NCBI RefSeq assembly: GCF_001650905.1
Contig: NZ_LXYG01000017.1
Coordinates: 1 to 64,000, forward strand
Length of the DNA stretch: 64,000 nt
Direction: 5' to 3'
Source of the DNA: Balneola sp. EhC07
GTDB lineage: Bacteria; Bacteroidota; Rhodothermia; Balneolales; Balneolaceae
Shown here: piece after piece, positions 11,522 through 64,000 of the stretch
Numbering within the stretch: the first letter of the stretch is position 1
Layout: each line of letters begins with the position of its first letter
Translations under genes and position numbers: made by a program
The notes under the pieces: generated by a model
Seen by the model: the letters and a program-made list of their open reading frames with translations, nothing else
Told to the model about the DNA's origin: nothing
Databases searched by the model: none

Positions 11522-12319
11522 TTAATTCTTCAGAGCCTTAGGTACACTTATCAGTTGTATAATACTATGTCTTTTCGACTCAATTTTCCCAGCTATGAAA
11601 TCAAAAATAAAAGCAAGTAAGATTATCCCGATGGCTGCAGCTAAAGCTTTCGGAACATTGTATAATCCCGTTGCCCTTAATATTAGTCTTCCCAGTCCAT
11701 TTTCTGAACTTATAAATTCTCCAATAAAAGCACCTAAAAGTGCAAAACCGATATTCAATCTCAATGAATTTAACACCCATTCAATTGAACCTGGAAGTAC
11801 TACTTTAAAGAATTTACTTCTTTTGTCAGCTCCATATATTTCTAATAAGTCTAAGAATTGATTCGATACTAATGTAGCTCCTTTATGAGCATTTGTTAAT
11901 GCAATAAAGAAAGTTGATAAGAAGGCAAGTACAACCTTCATCCAAAACCCTATACCAAACCATACAACTAATAATGGTGCAAAAGCAAAAACAGGAATTG
12001 ATCCCATTACTATTATGAAGGGTTTCATCACTTTTGAAGTAAATTCGGAATACCACAACAAAAGCCCACATGTTGTTCCTAAACTTGTGCCTATAAGGAA
12101 CCCTACTAGGGCCTCAGACCCTGTCAAAAAAAAATGATAGAAAAAATTTTCATTTATGATTAATGCAACCAATTCTTGGCCCACGGAGGATGGTGAACCT
12201 AACAAAAACTTAAATTGATTAAATTGAGATGCCAATATTTCCCATAAGACACCTACTAGAACTATCAAAAGAACCTGCATCGAGAAAACCCTTTTCCCTT
12301 TAGTGAAATCCATTTTCAA
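11522..12319 (-). CDS. ABC transporter permease (NitT/TauT/SsuC type)
   Basis: 265 residues with about six membrane helices, matching the binding-protein-dependent permease family of nitrate, taurine and sulfonate importers. The cytoplasmic EAA-type loop is seen around FLDLLEIYGADKRSKFFKVVLPGS, with the conserved G and PGS ending. Its start overlaps the ATPase gene by 20 bases. Gene order (binding protein, membrane-anchored homologue, ATPase, permease) is an import operon. The substrate cannot be read from sequence. Confidence 0.88.
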   Translation of the reverse strand: MKMDFTKGKRVFSMQVLLIVLVGVLWEILASQFNQFKFLLGSPSSVGQELVALIINENFFYHFFLTGSEALVGFLIGTSLGTTCGLLLWYSEFTSKVMKPFIIVMGSIPVFAFAPLLVVWFGIGFWMKVVLAFLSTFFIALTNAHKGATLVSNQFLDLLEIYGADKRSKFFKVVLPGSIEWVLNSLRLNIGFALLGAFIGEFISSENGLGRLILRATGLYNVPKALAAAIGIILLAFIFDFIAGKIESKRHSIIQLISVPKALKN

Positions 12320-13073
12320 GTATCTCCCATATCTTGCTAAATAATTTATTAAATTCAGGAGCTTGTCGACATTTTACTGCATCTTCTGCTCCTTCAGATA
12401 AACTTGAATCAATTATATCTACTATCTCACCTGGTTTTTTTGACATTACAGCTACCCTATCACCCAAAAAGATTGCTTCCTCAATATTATGAGTTACAAA
12501 AATTGTAGTTACCCCTTGTACTTTAGCCTTGTTTTTGAATTTTGTGTTAAGATCCAACCTTGTAACAAAATCTATTGAAGAGAATGGTTCATCACATAAT
12601 AAAATCCTTGGTGAACTTGCCAAAGCCCTTATTACCGATGCTCTTTGAGCTTCTCCCCCTGATACCTGATTAGGTAGTTTATCTTGAAGGCCATTTAATT
12701 TAAAGCTGCTAATCAAGTCAGAGATTAAACCTTTTGTTGAGGGGGTTATCGATTTTTTTATTTCGAGGCCTAATGCCATATTCTGATACAAAGTTCGCCA
12801 TGGAATCAATAATGACTCTTGAGGTATATAAGCTATACCTGAGCTCCTTCTTTCCTCATTTATGTGATAAGTGCCTTGGTAATCCTTAATTTTGTTAACG
12901 AGAATTTTTAATAGTGTGCTCTTTCCACATCCACTTGGTCCTACAATACAGAAAAACTCTCCCCTCTTAACCTGAAAGTTCAACTCGTTTAAAACTACAA
13001 TATCTTCATTTCTTCCTTTATATGATTTTGATAACCCTGCAATTGTAATATCGTATTCATTTTTCATTGACAT
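12300..13073 (-). CDS. ABC transporter ATPase (SsuB/TauB type)
   Basis: 257 residues. Walker A GPSGCGKST (45-53), the Q-loop near YIPQESLLIPW, signature VSGGEAQRASVIRALA, Walker B RILLCDEP and the H-loop FVTHNIEEA are all present, so it should be active. The PQE..LIPW region is characteristic of the nitrate/taurine/sulfonate subfamily. The start overlaps the upstream gene by 17 bases. It energises the adjacent permease. Confidence 0.92.
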   Translation of the reverse strand: MSMKNEYDITIAGLSKSYKGRNEDIVVLNELNFQVKRGEFFCIVGPSGCGKSTLLKILVNKIKDYQGTYHINEERRSSGIAYIPQESLLIPWRTLYQNMALGLEIKKSITPSTKGLISDLISSFKLNGLQDKLPNQVSGGEAQRASVIRALASSPRILLCDEPFSSIDFVTRLDLNTKFKNKAKVQGVTTIFVTHNIEEAIFLGDRVAVMSKKPGEIVDIIDSSLSEGAEDAVKCRQAPEFNKLFSKIWEILENGFH

Positions 13074-14415
13074 GCCTGCTTAGATTTAAGACAAATAATT
13101 CTGAAGCAAAGCTAATCGAAAGAACGGTTACCAATAATTGACTGAAACTTTCTGAAAACGGGAACAGTGAAATAATCAGAATAGATGCTATTACACTAAA
13201 TAAACTATAATGGATATAACAAAAAGTTAAGTTTTGCCTTAAATCGAAATAGTCTATAATCTTCTCTGATATATATATTCCAGCTCCTATAACAGCTGGC
13301 ACAAATGTGAAAACCTTTAGATACGCCTTGTTAATTGAGACTGATACCAACAGCCCAATTAATGCTAAAGCAATACTACCTGTTAGTACGCCTAACAATA
13401 ATTTCTCTTTTTTATTACTAATGATCGATCCATCTGTATTTACACCTCTTTTAAAAGCATTATCCAGACGAATGCTTATAGGCTTTATTTTCTCTTCATA
13501 AAAAGCTTCAAATTGTAAAATCTGATCGTTGGTTACCTTTTTATTTCTTGCGTCAGAACTTACTATGCATTTTTTTACCCATTGAGCTTTTGTAATTTTT
13601 GCTGAGGCTGGAAATAAACTACTTTCATTTGCTCTTTGCAATGCACTCGAAGCCAACTCCTCATGAGTATTTTCAAATCTTCTTGAAGCAACCTTTACTA
13701 CTCTTTCATCATCAAATACACATAGAGTTATTGCTTTTTGAAGTGCGGCCACTATTGCCTCAATAATATCGAAATCTTGTTCAATTACATCACTTCTTGT
13801 TAGTAGAGCTGTAGTCAAAATATTGTGATATTCTGGAGTGTTACTAATGTCCAAATCAATTCTGAATTCTTGATCTTTATTTTCTTTAACAAGTGCATCA
13901 ATCCATACTATATCGTTTGAAAGAACTAATACAGAATCATCATCACTATGTTCTCTTAATGCTACTAACTCTTGTTTCGAGCCAACTGACTTTATATTAG
14001 GTTTTTTATTTGCTGATGTATAAATACGATTTGCAATCTCATAAGAAGTTGTCCCTTTCTTAAATGCTATTATCTTATCATACCTTGCTAAATCTTGTAA
14101 TGTTCGACTATTATATTTTCCATGATTAACAGCCCAAAAAGCGGTGTTATTAACTAATGCCATTATCGGAATTGGACGGAATGAAGCCTTATTATTATCA
14201 TAAAGAACTCCGCTTGGATCACAGACAGCGAACTTAACTTTTTCAGGGTTACTCATCAAATCATCTAACGCCCCTTCATCAGTCCTTTCCACAGAGGATC
14301 TTACGTTAACCTTTACATTAGGAGGAAGTAGGTCAAAAAAATTATATTCCTGACAAACATATAAAGGGAGATACAGAAAATGTGATGCCATTTGAACGAT
14401 TTCTATTTCTCTCAT
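13057..14415 (-). CDS. NMT1/SsuA-like domain fused to four membrane helices
   Basis: 452 residues. The N-terminal 270 or so residues follow the periplasmic binding protein pattern of NMT1/SsuA proteins (IEIVQMASHFLYLPLYVCQEYNFFD, then KVKFAVCDPSG). There is no signal peptide or lipobox. The C-terminal third has four hydrophobic segments (starting LLLGVLTGSIALALIGLL, VFTFVPAVIGAGIYI, FCYIHYSLFSVIASILII and SFSQLLVTVLSISFA). Unless the topology is unusual, the binding domain faces the cytoplasm, making it more like a sensor or regulator than a scavenger. It sits inside the transporter operon, after the classical binding protein. No close named family is recognised. Confidence 0.6.
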   Translation of the reverse strand: MREIEIVQMASHFLYLPLYVCQEYNFFDLLPPNVKVNVRSSVERTDEGALDDLMSNPEKVKFAVCDPSGVLYDNNKASFRPIPIMALVNNTAFWAVNHGKYNSRTLQDLARYDKIIAFKKGTTSYEIANRIYTSANKKPNIKSVGSKQELVALREHSDDDSVLVLSNDIVWIDALVKENKDQEFRIDLDISNTPEYHNILTTALLTRSDVIEQDFDIIEAIVAALQKAITLCVFDDERVVKVASRRFENTHEELASSALQRANESSLFPASAKITKAQWVKKCIVSSDARNKKVTNDQILQFEAFYEEKIKPISIRLDNAFKRGVNTDGSIISNKKEKLLLGVLTGSIALALIGLLVSVSINKAYLKVFTFVPAVIGAGIYISEKIIDYFDLRQNLTFCYIHYSLFSVIASILIISLFPFSESFSQLLVTVLSISFASELFVLNLSRHVNEK

Positions 14416-15484: not shown

Positions 15485-16075
15485 CTATATGATATTTAGT
15501 ACGACTTCATCCAACCTCTCCTGATTCTGCGCCAAATAATGAAGGGTAGTCACTGGGTCTTTATGTCCCATAACAAACTGAGTAGCCACAATATCATTTC
15601 CGGAGGAACGATACACTTTTTCACAAAATGTCTTTCTCAATGAGTGAGTAGAAACGTTTTCATAGATTCCATTTTCGATAAAGGCATTCTTAAGAATTCT
15701 CCAAGCTTGAACAGATGAGATAGGATTATTTACCCCCTTCCTGGATTGAAAAGCGTAACAAGTTAGATTGAAGTGACCCTTTGATAATAATACTTCCCTA
15801 TAACTTTCAAGCACCTCTTTCAATTTAGGATGTATAGGAATTGCTCTTGGATTTTTGCCACCCTTCATATTTTTTGGCTTGATGTAAATTCTTTCATTTA
15901 CCTCGCCATTCGGCGCATAAAGATCTGACAGCTTCAAGCTGAGCACCTCCCTGATACGATATCCCGCCCACCTCTGAATGGAAAACATTGCTAAGTTTCG
16001 AAGTTTCTTCCTTTTTGAGAAGTAAGATTCTATCAATTCATACTCTTCATCAGTTAACTTTCTCATACCTGCCAT
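15485..16075 (-). CDS. Short tyrosine recombinase (phage integrase family)
   Basis: 196 residues, essentially only the catalytic domain. The active-site set is complete: R40 (AGYRIREVLSL), a Lys in the beta-hairpin near 68-74, H144 and R147 (HSLR), H171 (GHKD) and Y180 (LHYL). The N-terminal core-binding domain of full integrases (about 100 residues) is absent, so it may act with a partner or on short sites. A decayed copy lies at 10853-11058, on the other side of the ABC operon. It may have moved the 10.8-16.1 kb block or the defence island to its right. Confidence 0.85.
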   Translation of the reverse strand: MAGMRKLTDEEYELIESYFSKRKKLRNLAMFSIQRWAGYRIREVLSLKLSDLYAPNGEVNERIYIKPKNMKGGKNPRAIPIHPKLKEVLESYREVLLSKGHFNLTCYAFQSRKGVNNPISSVQAWRILKNAFIENGIYENVSTHSLRKTFCEKVYRSSGNDIVATQFVMGHKDPVTTLHYLAQNQERLDEVVLNII

Positions 16076-60255: not shown

Positions 60256-61380
60256 ATGAAGAATTTATTTACCTCAGAGTCAGTATCAGAAGGGCATCCG
60301 GATAAAGTTGCCGATCAAATTTCAGACGCCATTCTGGATGCCATGTTAGATCAGGATCCGGAATCAAGAGTAGCTGTTGAAACCCTTGTAACCACCGGTT
60401 TAGCTGTAGTTTCTGGAGAAGTTACTACTGATGCCTATGTTGATGTTCAGGAAATAGTAAGAGAAGTCATAAAAGAGATCGGGTATACGAAAGCATCCTA
60501 TCGTTTTGACTCTGAAAGTTGCGGAGTACTCTCCACCATCCATACACAAAGTCCTGATATTGCCCAGGGAGTAGACAGAGAAGGAGCCGGTGATCAGGGA
60601 ATGATGTTTGGTTACGCCAATAAAGAAACTCCGGAGTACATGCCGATGCCGCTTCAGTTTTCTCATGATCTTTTGAGAGAATTAGCTCGTATTCGTAAAA
60701 AAACAGACCTGATGCCGTATCTGGGACCGGATAATAAAAGTCAGGTTACCATTGAATACGATGATGCCGGAAAGCCAAAAAGAATCCATACCATCGTTCT
60801 TTCCACCCAACATGATGAAGGTGTTGAGCAGTCACAAATTCACGAAGACATAAAGAATATTCTTATCAAGAATGTGATTCCTTCCGAACTCATTGATGAT
60901 GAAACCATTTATCATGTAAATCCAACAGGCAAGTTTGTAATAGGCGGACCACATGGAGATACCGGATTAACCGGTCGCAAAATTATTGTAGACACTTATG
61001 GAGGATTCGGAGCACACGGTGGTGGAGCTTTTTCCGGAAAAGATCCTTCGAAAGTGGATAGAAGTGCCGCCTACGCATCCCGACATATTGCCAAAAATGT
61101 AGTAGCCGCAGGTTTGGCTGATGAGTGCCTTGTTCAATTGGCGTATGCCATTGGTGTTGCAGAACCTGTTTCCATTAATGTGAACAGTTACGGAACCGGA
61201 AAAATGAGTGATCCTGAATTGGCTAACTTGGTTGCGCAGACTTTTGATTGTACTCCGAAAGGAATTATCTCTCGTTTTGATCTGAAACGACCGATCTATA
61301 AACCAACCGCGGCTTATGGTCATTTCGGAAGAGAAGAATTCCCGTGGGAGAAACTAGATTTTGTAGATAAGTTGGGGTGA
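60256..61380 (+). CDS. metK: S-adenosylmethionine synthase
   Basis: 374 residues. [24 protein letters not shown] at the N-terminus, [12 protein letters not shown], the P-loop-like [20 protein letters not shown] and [19 protein letters not shown] are diagnostic. It makes S-adenosylmethionine from ATP and methionine, and so feeds the HsdM methyltransferase among others. Length matches the family. Confidence 0.98.
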
Positions 61381-61394
61381 TTTCCATACAGGAT

Positions 61395-61848
61395 TGGGTT
61401 ATCAATGACATCCCTCGTATTGTTCAAAGAACCGTTTGGTGACGGATGATTTGTATCCCCGAATGATTTACCCAATATTGTTTGATGGTGATTCAAATTT
61501 GGATTTATAAAATGAATTATTGATTCCAATTTTATTACGTAGGGGCGAATCGCGATTCGCCCCTACGATTGGGTTTTTATCAATAATTTCGATAATCTCA
61601 TGAACATGATTCGGCATAATCACAAATGCATCCAAATTTATATTGTCACGAATGGCTTCTGTTTTAAACCATTCATTCCTTACAACCACCCCGAAATCAT
61701 TCAGGTGCATTTTGCCATCAATTACATCGCCAAAAATACGTTGCATATTTTGAGTACAAATGGTGATGAAATAATATCCCGGGCTAGAATAATCATAACC
61801 CTGCAAACGCATGGATCGTCGGTTTGCCAATTTCTTCTGCTTCATCAT
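61395..61848 (-). pseudogene. REP-associated tyrosine transposase (RAYT/TnpA-REP), broken
   Basis: The readable frame from 61848 begins with RRSMRLQGYDYSSPGYYFITIC, which matches the Y1 transposase N-terminus. The HUH-type motif follows in FVIMPNHVHEIIEI. A REP palindrome (61538-61567) is read through in frame as IVGANRDSPLR. The frame ends at TAA just after ESPSNNIG. Past this stop the same frame continues IIRGYKSSVTKRFFEQYE, the normal family sequence, and then breaks off at 61395. So a premature stop and loss of the C-terminus inactivate it. RAYTs move or maintain REP elements. Confidence 0.82.
61538..61567. repeat. REP palindrome inside the RAYT frame, 30 bp
   Basis: Perfect palindrome with half-site CGTAGGGGCGAATCG. 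It shares the TAGGGGCGA core with 30596-30639 and 61940-61981 but has an AATCGCGATT centre. It adds whole codons without breaking the transposase frame. Confidence 0.88.
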
Positions 61849-61939: not shown

Positions 61940-61981
61940 ATTCCATGTAGGGGCGATTCATGAATCGCCCCTACATGGAAT
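61940..61981. repeat. REP-like perfect palindrome, 42 bp
   Basis: Half-site ATTCCATGTAGGGGCGATTCA, no spacer. The central 28 bases are identical to those of the element at 30596-30639; only the outer arms differ (CCATG versus CCTTT). It lies 92 bases upstream of the RAYT start. Confidence 0.88.
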
Positions 61982-62122: not shown

Positions 62123-62224
62123 ATTTGTGCCGAATGTATTAGTCCCTGCTATCTGAACTCTCAGATGTGTATTTTTGATGTATTCAGGAATTACACACAA
62201 ATAAACTGTACGGATAATATTATG

Positions 62225-62787
62225 TTAGGTGGCTTAACAAAATGAAAGGTTTAAACAACGATATTACTTTTTCACAGTGCAAAGAAATCTTTCATATGTC
62301 TGGTCCATGGATGGGTACACTTAATTGGAAAAGAACATTTGAGATCAAATCTATAATGATGGATTCCGTTTTTACTGAAAGGAATACCGAACGGATTTAT
62401 TTCATCCGTTGCAATATGCCAACCAATAAACGTAATGACGTCTATTTTTCACTTTGTTTCATTGAAATCGAAACCGAAAAAGCATTTGAAGTCCAACAAA
62501 AACTCCCTTCTACTTCATTGCCAGAAATTACTACTATGTATAAAAATGATAATGTTGTTCTTGTCCAATTTCACAATAAAGAATTTGTCATCGATACTAC
62601 TGAAGCCTTGCTCAAACCCTTAATGAATGAAATTATCCAAAGTAAATCGAAATAAAATCGCTTCGCCACCTAACAAGCGTTTCAAGCGGACTCGGGAAGT
62701 GGCTCCGCATTTTTAACTTTCAGGTAACTGATTAATTCTGTTACTTTCAGAAAAACCGAAAACCCTCGCCGCTTAAACGCGGGGTCG
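62225..62787 (+). mobile_element. Integron gene cassette 1
   Basis: Runs from TTAGGTGGC (after the G at 62224) to the G of the next GTT site. Its own attC (62668-62793) opens with GCCACCTAAC (62665-62674), the exact reverse complement of GTTAGGTGGC (62224-62233) at the cassette start, as required for a circular cassette integrated at G|TT. It is 563 bases long and carries one gene in the usual orientation. Confidence 0.88.
62242..62655 (+). CDS. Unknown cassette-borne protein
   Basis: 137 residues. The ATG lies 17 bases into the cassette and the stop is 12 bases before the attC core. Soluble, mixed alpha/beta pattern; WMGTLNWKRTFEIKSIM near the start and VVLVQFHNKEFVIDTTEALLKPLM near the end. 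No family is recognised. This compact fit between cassette start and attC is typical of integron genes, most of which have no known function. Confidence 0.8.
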   Translation: MKGLNNDITFSQCKEIFHMSGPWMGTLNWKRTFEIKSIMMDSVFTERNTERIYFIRCNMPTNKRNDVYFSLCFIEIETEKAFEVQQKLPSTSLPEITTMYKNDNVVLVQFHNKEFVIDTTEALLKPLMNEIIQSKSK

Positions 62788-62793
62788 TTATGT
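62668..62793. other. attC recombination site 1
   Basis: R'' ACCTAAC (62668-62674) and R' GTTATGT (62787-62793) flank L'' GCGTTTCAAGCGG (62677-62689) and L' CCGCTTAAACGC (62769-62780). L'' and L' pair over 12 bp with one extra C at 62683, which leaves an extrahelical G on the bottom strand as in functional attC sites. The 79-base middle between the L boxes has only partial symmetry. Confidence 0.9.
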
Positions 62794-63322
62794 TACTTTA
62801 GAAATTACAGCTGTGATCATAGACTGGTATAAATCGCATGATGAAAAAGAGAAGAGCAATTTTGTTGCTGTTTCATGGGTCTTGATTGCAGTTTTAGGTT
62901 TGATGCTTATTGTTCTCTCAATTGGTCAAGAGCATGATGATTACTTCAAAGCCAACAACGGTCTTTTCTTAATGTGTATAATGACCTTAGTATTGATCCT
63001 AATTCGCAGAAAGACGTTTGATCAAATTTTTAAAAACAGTTTTAAACTACTGAGTAAAAAAAGACCTATTGAATTGCTCTTTCTCAGTGATTTTATATTT
63101 CTACTCTCGGTTCTGGCTGTACTAATTTCATTCTTGTTCGTTTTGGATCTTACATTTATTTCCAAAAATGGTTTGCAAATTGGTGGCGTTGTTGCAGTTT
63201 CTATAGCTAGTTTGTTAAACTCACTCAGAAAAACAGTAACATAACAAGCGTTTCAAACGGACTCGGTTAGGGTTCGAAACTTTAATAAATTAAACCAGGC
63301 TCGCCGCTTAAACGCGGGGTCG
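62788..63322 (+). mobile_element. Integron gene cassette 2
   Basis: Begins TTATGTTAC (G|TT at 62787) and ends at the G of 63322. Its attC opens with GTAACATAAC (63236-63245), the exact reverse complement of GTTATGTTAC (62787-62796). It is 535 bases long with one gene whose stop codon lies inside the R'' box. It follows cassette 1 directly, so the two form an array. Confidence 0.88.
62813..63244 (+). CDS. Unknown cassette-borne membrane protein
   Basis: 143 residues with a GTG start 25 bases into the cassette. Four hydrophobic segments are visible (FVAVSWVLIAVLGLMLIVLS; FLMCIMTLVLILI; FLSDFIFLLSVLAVLISFLF; IGGVVAVSIASLL). It is probably an inner-membrane protein; no family is recognised. The stop TAA (63242-63244) is part of the R'' box of its attC. 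Confidence 0.78.
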   Translation: MIIDWYKSHDEKEKSNFVAVSWVLIAVLGLMLIVLSIGQEHDDYFKANNGLFLMCIMTLVLILIRRKTFDQIFKNSFKLLSKKRPIELLFLSDFIFLLSVLAVLISFLFVLDLTFISKNGLQIGGVVAVSIASLLNSLRKTVT

Positions 63323-63328
63323 TTTGCC
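63239..63328. other. attC recombination site 2
   Basis: R'' ACATAAC (63239-63245) and R' GTTTGCC (63322-63328) flank L'' GCGTTTCAAACGG (63248-63260) and L' CCGCTTAAACGC (63304-63315). The L arms pair with one G-T-type mismatch and the same extra C (63254). L' and the GGGGTCG stretch are identical to site 1, so both cassettes belong to one integrase lineage. It is 36 bases shorter than site 1 in the middle. Confidence 0.88.
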
Positions 63329-63526
63329 TACCAGCTGATCATGGAATATCCCAGCATTCCCCGAGTATTGGGATTATTTGTAACCGAAATCAACAAAAGT
63401 GGACCTGCTTACGAATGCGGAATCATGCCGAGCGATGTGATCGTACAGATTGGAGAAGAGCGTGTAACCAGCGACATACATGCCCGGGCTTTATTTAGCG
63501 CTATTATTTGTCACTCCATTTTTTAA
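63323..63526 (+). pseudogene. PDZ-domain fragment (HtrA/trypsin-like protease relic)
   Basis: Reading from the cassette junction: FAYQLIMEYPSIPRVLGLFV, then TEINKSGPAYECGIMPSDVI and VQIGEERVTSDIHARALF. This joins the end of an HtrA protease domain to a PDZ domain, with a probable internal loss after EINKS, and homology stops at ARALF. The left side is cut by the integron cassette, and the right side runs into the serine hydrolase gene. It has no start of its own. Confidence 0.65.
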
Positions 63527-64000
63527 AATAAACATTCCTGGTTCTTCCGTTCGAAGCATTGAAACCGGTGATTTCTCCCGCCTCGTTACGCACAAAATCT
63601 ACCTCGGCAATTGGGTATCCTGCACTAAATGTGTCGACGCTTCCCGGCGACAATTTAATATCATCCGCCAACTGATAATTTTTAAGCATCAGGCTGCTGT
63701 CTTCAATGACAATATCATACACCGTTTCTATTTCTTCACTGAAGTATCGACCGGTAAACTCCTCCATTTCATCCACCGTCAGCTCAAATTTTATTTTCTT
63801 CGCGATATGATTTCCGTTTTGGTGCAGGGTAAGCGAATCAGCAGTATAATCTTCATTTCTGTGAAAGGTGACTGAGGCATTCACTCCAACCAAACTAAAG
63901 GTAGAGTCGGATGTGGCTGTAATATCAACTTCCGGCTGACCGGTAGCCTGTGTGTAAATCCTATCGTCATCTCTGGAAAAACTGAGGATAAAACCGGGCA
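63504..64000 (-). CDS. Serine hydrolase (beta-lactamase family) C-terminal region, partial
   Basis: The frame is open to the right edge, so the gene starts beyond 64000; 165 residues are seen. PGFILSFSRDDDRIYTQATG, then the FxLxxVNASVTF strand, and EFTGRYFSEEIETVYDIVIEDSSLMLK follow the C-terminal lipocalin-like domain that ends many beta-lactamase-fold serine hydrolases of Bacteroidota. The catalytic SxxK domain would lie outside the window. Its end overlaps the PDZ relic. Confidence 0.72.
   Translation of the reverse strand, partial: PGFILSFSRDDDRIYTQATGQPEVDITATSDSTFSLVGVNASVTFHRNEDYTADSLTLHQNGNHIAKKIKFELTVDEMEEFTGRYFSEEIETVYDIVIEDSSLMLKNYQLADDIKLSPGSVDTFSAGYPIAEVDFVRNEAGEITGFNASNGRTRNVYFKKWSDK

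Follow-up and report, generated by a model that had tools for sequence, protein, structure and literature searches.

The window discussed here, G000:C17:1-64000, is the 64,000-nucleotide stretch that begins one contig of a draft genome (3.62 Mb, 20 contigs, 98.56% complete) from the Balneolaceae, a family within the Balneolota. Near its right end, an attI leader and two integron gene cassettes are found between metK and a start-less PDZ fragment (Table 1). The cassette junctions are located at G62224|TT, G62787|TT and G63322|TT. Cassette 1 starts with G62224|TTAGGTGGC and cassette 2 with G62787|TTATGTTAC, both of which are present in the window, and each start is complementary to the R'' of the cassette's own attC. 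For cassette 1, the attC opens with the exact reverse complement of the start, with 0 mismatches in 9 positions; for cassette 2, the correspondence is visible on inspection of the sequence and when the rejoined ends are folded. With these boundaries, and with both attC found by an independent model (see below), the two cassettes recognised in the earlier note are real, and each carries a single open reading frame, as was stated there.

Table 1. Features of the integron locus, with positions in the window.
Feature	Position	Strand	Remarks
metK (S-adenosylmethionine synthetase)	60256..61380	+	left border of the integron locus; Pfam S-AdoMet_synt N/M/C
deletion scar, 17 bp	62128..62144		blastn against G001 (L003); replaces 1,096 bp with intI
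retained attI leader	62145..62227	+	core CGGATAATATTATG|TTA; cut after G62224; 89% identity to G001 L003
gene cassette 1, 563 bp	62225..62787	+	G|TT boundaries; start and R'' complementary at 9/9 nt
ORF of cassette 1, 137 aa	62242..62655	+	no known family
attC of cassette 1	62666..62797	+	R2 116.1 bits, R1 96.8 bits; R' end read across the junction
gene cassette 2, 535 bp	62788..63322	+	G|TT boundaries
ORF of cassette 2, 143 aa	62813..63244	+	GTG start, true start may be later; likely membrane protein
attC of cassette 2	63237..63332	+	R2 83.6 bits, R1 81.1 bits; final attC before the right border
right border, start-less PDZ fragment	63323..63526	+	Pfam PDZ_6; common to G003
beta-lactamase-fold serine hydrolase gene, 3' part	63504..64000	-	Pfam PF00144, E 1.2e-65; 99% identity to G003; extends to C17:65495

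Cassette gene 1 gives no family in Pfam, PADLOC or NCBIfam at E<=1. A 63% identical relative, located directly after an attC, was found in one of the 91 other family genomes (G006:C12). For cassette gene 2, Pfam and NCBIfam give weak sub-cut-off matches only, PADLOC gives no function, and no other match was obtained in the 92 family genomes searched. The stretch between metK and the integron also contains two GTAGGGGCGAATCGCGATTCGCCCCTAC-like palindromes (61538-61567 and 61946-61975) and a minus-strand ORF (61468-61848) that resembles a broken REP-type transposase; Pfam gives nothing for this ORF at E<=0.001, and its counterpart in the related genome G001 (L003) matches Y1_Tnp. At 15518-16057 on the minus strand, an open frame of 209 aa has a catalytic domain of the phage-integrase type; it is not an integron integrase.

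The attC sites were examined with a covariance model, R2, constructed from 32 training sites, none of which comes from this genome. Applied to the 64-kb window, the model gives three matches, namely the two cassette attC, with E-values of 4.8e-32 (116.1 bits) and 2.2e-22 (83.6 bits), and an antisense shadow of the first one (23.7 bits). Single-sequence folds failed to separate the attC from shuffled sequences, as the minimum-energy folds of the two sites in place are unexceptional (z of -1.48 and +0.10), and we therefore rely on the covariance model. All site counts reported below are model-based and do not come from approximate motif searches. A search of 20 kb around the site against Rfam at gathering thresholds returned no family; Rfam may be without an attC family.

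An alignment of 46 attC from the genus shows the features expected of such sites, with paired R''/R' and L''/L' arms, an extrahelical base and compensatory change. Standard pairs occupy 90.4% of the cells in the R and L arms, compared to 30.5-42.3% when the arms are slid by 1-3 columns. Seven of the 19 arm pairs have changed on both sides, against a mean of 3.4 in shuffled alignments, and none of 500 shuffles reaches seven; counted cell by cell, two-sided changes are unexceptional, their number being reached in 175 of the 500 shuffles. The earlier note described the L boxes of both window sites as paired with one unpaired C in L''. The unpaired C is indeed seen in the genus alignment, and the pairing has to be qualified for the second site, which has one L mismatch. 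In place, the R' of this second attC lies in the right flank, and its pairing with R'' is poor.

At E<=1e-3, a model search with R1 finds 122 attC in eight genomes of the genus. G000 has 21 of these, in several clusters, and the seven relatives have 26, 19, 17, 12, 0 (G005), 15 and 12. The window accounts for two of the 21, and the array region continues past its end.

Relatives have the integrase gene that is absent from the window at the corresponding position. In G001 (L003), intI is located at 1492-2457 on the minus strand, between metK and the first cassette. According to blastn, the window up to 62127 corresponds to L003 up to 1485, and window positions 62145-62227 correspond to L003 2582-2664, i.e. 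the window has 17 bp where G001 has 1,096 bp that include the complete intI. The alignment with G003 (L004) gives the same picture, with intI missing from the window and attI kept, and the deletion lies inside a single contig. The earlier note had stated that no intI lies nearby, and this holds for the assembly as a whole, where the best TIGR02249 match, at 80.7 bits, stays below the cut-off of 265, with the proviso that an intI could lie in a gap of this 20-contig draft. The IntI of G001, by comparison, scores 434 bits, and matches over the cut-off are present in six of the eight genus genomes, so that an integrase of this lineage, which the earlier note proposed to look for, does exist. At E<=1e-60, intI matches occur in 50 of 92 family genomes and in 12 of 21 genera.

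The linkage to metK is also shared. The two genes adjoin in G001, G002, G003 and G006, four of the six intI-bearing genomes of the genus (in the other two, G004 and G007, intI is located elsewhere), and also in G035, which belongs to another genus. The remaining relative, G005, has no intI over the cut-off, no attC, and no site at E<=1e-3 with the attI model R3 described below. Compared to a complete chromosomal integron, the window lacks the integrase gene, deleted at the locus, and retains an attI beside the first cassette (47.9 bits with R3; 89% identity to G001) at a fixed, vertically kept position given by the metK linkage, to which G004 and G007 are the exceptions. Complete integrons at the same locus in relatives, the linkage to metK and the occurrence of intI across the family together mark this as an old integron site that has lost its enzyme here. 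The window locus is thus the metK-linked chromosomal integron of the genus after deletion of intI, with attI and two cassettes left. An integron locus without intI is as such of an ordinary, known kind, and it is well documented in the window.

Between its fixed borders, the locus varies in the way expected of an integron. Window 63241-64000 is 95.4% identical to positions 7248-6491 of L015 in G003, and the order at this right border is the same in both genomes: the last attC, the start-less PDZ fragment, and the beta-lactamase-fold gene on the minus strand. The interval from attI to the right border holds 10 attC over ~10.2 kb in G003 and two attC over 1.1 kb in G000. For the earlier note, an unvarying content flanked by the same core genes in every relative would have spoken against cassettes, and what we find in G003 is shared borders with different cassettes.

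The earlier note assigned the cluster to the CALIN type. This is right in the sense of the software definition of IntegronFinder, as given in the accessible part of PMC9024848, since there are two attC (at least two being called for) and no integrase in the vicinity. The cluster differs from such a CALIN in that it keeps an attI and stands at its native metK integron locus; IntegronFinder, according to the same text, seeks attI only for class 1. An isolated or off-target insertion was considered for the window cluster and is ruled out by the retained attI and by the metK-linked locus with its deleted intI. Off-target insertion, intI loss and rearrangement are the CALIN origins proposed in the accessible part of PMC8618304, and intI loss is clearly what happened in the window. 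That such clusters are seldom described in this bacterial group, as the earlier note put it, agrees with our literature search, which gave no report pairing integron and Balneolaceae; the papers it gave that combine integron and Balneola have other subjects, as judged by title.

We now consider the attI leader. The model R3 was constructed from the six attI sites adjacent to intI, with the window not in the training set, and it matches the window at 62155-62227 with 47.9 bits. Of the three GGATTTATTC-like elements, the deletion has taken away the outer two, and the window retains the inner portion of attI. As a separate observation, attI leaders contain inverted GATTTATTC-like elements at about -101 to -25 from the cut. 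Their arms are exact or nearly exact in some leaders and co-vary between some (e.g. L030, L035 and L023), and several leaders are without the inverted repeat. The elements could be binding sites or could form a fold.

Sites of this kind are not confined to the integrase locus. At E<=1e-3, R3 finds 18 sites in the eight genus genomes, which are the six training sites, the window, and 11 orphans away from intI. All 11 orphans have a same-strand attC downstream, within 1 kb for 10 of them and at about 2.5-2.6 kb for one; only 36 of the 122 attC, picked by hand, were used for finding the nearest one, and the distances are therefore upper bounds. In G000, the orphan leaders are located at C17:65709, C17:400751 and C18:154373, and together with the window leader they head 15 of the 21 attC of the genome. 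The six others (C15:189639-191622, C2:16983, C1:6892 and C17:79347) lie outside these four arrays, and no attI-like leader was found for them with R3 at E<=1e-3.

Where a cassette has truly been captured, its first bases follow G| directly and pair with the R'' of its own attC. This was examined for 15 orphans, i.e. the 11 from R3 and four found by the core 16-mer; the orphan of G002 was found in this second way and not by R3. The start and R'' match exactly (9/9) at 14 of 21 sites, comprising all five of the intI-linked sites examined, the window, and eight of the 15 orphans, and three further orphans are one nucleotide off. In a mispaired control, where starts were compared with the downstream sequences of other sites, 9 of 418 comparisons are exact and 45 are one off. 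The remaining four orphans have two mismatches, which is frequent in the mispaired control too (119 of 418).

One of these sites, orphan locus 1, is orthologous in G000, G001, G003 and G006, with 87-92% identity over the nearest 1.6-3 kb upstream, and in G002, with about 71%. At this locus, the first cassette is a different one in each of the five genomes, always with an exact junction, and their downstream sequences have no shared match of at least 150 bp near the start. Orphan locus 2 is unrelated to orphan locus 1, and the leaders of the two are alike over only about 101 bp (80-86%). Upstream of the 15 orphans, no remnant of intI was found (best E 0.33) in flanks of up to 6 kb, the shortest being 587 bp.

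Some further observations concern these regions. In the next array of G000, after the orphan attI at C17:65709, there are two toxin-antitoxin pairs, Phd/YefM with YoeB and Phd/YefM with ParE, at C17:66562-67064 and C17:68221-68789 (L009 6563-7065 and 8222-8790), and L009 also contains two adjoining similar ORFs (12053-12607 and 12573-13190) that look EF-hand-like by eye. In G006, two attI-like cores are located on the same strand 504 bp apart (C42:10686 and 11190; L048), and no attC half-site was found within 1.5 kb downstream of them.

Beyond the genus, the pattern is less pronounced. Four genomes of two other genera, picked because their intI-linked attI matched R3, were also searched. At E<=1e-3, they contain 12 R3 sites, of which four are intI-linked and eight are orphan (two of them adjacent), and an attC lies within about 1.5 kb downstream of three of the eight, as seen with a genus-specific attC model that may miss sites. 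In G029, of another genus, a 181-bp segment of the intI-linked attI, beginning some 30 bp outside intI, is copied elsewhere with 98.9% identity and without intI. No attC was found downstream of this copy, which may be an empty orphan attI. The copy is one of two attI-like leaders that stand side by side in G029 (C2:2943 and 3124; L212 and L220).

On the basis of these comparisons, we suggest the following scenario. As long as IntI was present, it would have brought cassettes in at G|TT through recombination of attC with attI. A single IntI may act in trans on several dispersed copies of attI, each heading its own cassettes, and these copies may have spread as short modules. The arrays of G000 would then have been frozen since the loss of intI, unless IntI was supplied again. 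We infer the trans service because the cassette junctions are precise and because different first cassettes occupy the orthologous orphan site. Taken as a whole, an intI-deleted, metK-linked integron combined with trans service of dispersed attI by one IntI is probably the correct description.

One alternative is that every orphan leader belonged to a complete integron that has lost its own intI, with no service in trans. The window displays exactly such a loss, which is also one of the CALIN origins proposed in PMC8618304 as far as its text is accessible, and many intI of Xanthomonas are inactivated according to the corresponding part of PMC12444791. This alternative has difficulty, however, with the upstream flanks searched, where none of the 15 orphans has an intI remnant, and with orphan locus 1, where four of the five genomes with different first cassettes have a single intI that is located elsewhere. 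The attI-only copy of 181 bp in G029 also argues against it, and we regard plain decay as unlikely.

The leaders might instead serve chiefly as conserved promoters of the cassettes (Pc), with expression and not recombination as the reason for their being copied, and other integrons are expected to have a promoter close to attI (PMC9024848, accessible part). The conserved block, however, stops at the G|TT cut and is followed by the bases of whichever cassette comes next, so that the cut has to be a recombination junction. The promoter and recombination roles are moreover compatible, and a mainly promoter-based origin of the leaders is improbable. The chance is smaller still that the cassettes were inserted into ordinary attG-like sites, the likeness of the leaders reflecting no more than a preferred target sequence. 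Off-target activity of IntI is known (accessible parts of PMC12444791 and PMC8618304), but the likeness extends well beyond a short core, over ~101 bp between orphan loci 1 and 2, 181 bp in G029 and, between the window's own site and intI-linked attI, 83 bp, and off-target sites were rejected as an explanation of the leaders on this length.

Returning to service in trans, the wider proposal is that the Balneolaceae have polycentric integrons. A single integrase would act in trans on attI sites scattered over the chromosome, and an attI of about 100-180 bp, without intI, could duplicate and found capture loci with no new integrase. The window would then show such a system late in its history, after the integrase has disappeared and with the capture loci still in place. 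This general form may well be correct, and may just as easily turn out to be wrong.

Sedentary chromosomal integrons, such as those of Vibrio, have an attI, tandem cassettes and toxin-antitoxin cassettes. The present system has all of these, the toxin-antitoxin cassettes being located in the array region, and differs in that G000 is without an integrase and has several attI-like sites and not one. The closest parallel is Xanthomonas, for which the accessible text of PMC12444791 describes a chromosomal integron downstream of ilvD with an intI that is often inactivated or deleted, and CALINs at other conserved loci; the same text points out that draft assemblies inflate CALIN counts. As there, we find a fixed, lineage-specific locus beside a housekeeping gene, a vertically inherited intI, frequent loss of intI with the arrays kept, and more attC clusters elsewhere at conserved positions. 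The phylum and the neighbouring gene, here metK, are different, and the distant clusters are headed by attI-like leaders in our case, whereas the Xanthomonas CALINs are described in that text without attI. Delta-attI-type cassettes, i.e. resistance cassettes of mobile integrons that have attI as their downstream end (PMC12901181, accessible part), likewise have an attI sequence away from intI, but the attI sites discussed here head chromosomal arrays.

Dispersed attI sites would be new relative to the known integrons. Among the matches listed in our search, which left most of the subscription literature uncovered, no title reports dispersed, second, multiple or orphan attI. The textbook integron consists of one integrase, one attI and one array. 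Should a single integrase serve several attI, clusters classified as CALIN for want of a search for attI may still be capturing cassettes, and which cassettes come first, and so are probably expressed, would be decided at several places simultaneously. The genus constitutes a natural test set, as it includes genomes with intI and several attI-like sites, G000 without intI and with four attI-headed arrays, and G005 with neither intI nor detectable attC. The idea of dispersed attI is thus testable, and it would bear on how integrase-less clusters are to be read.
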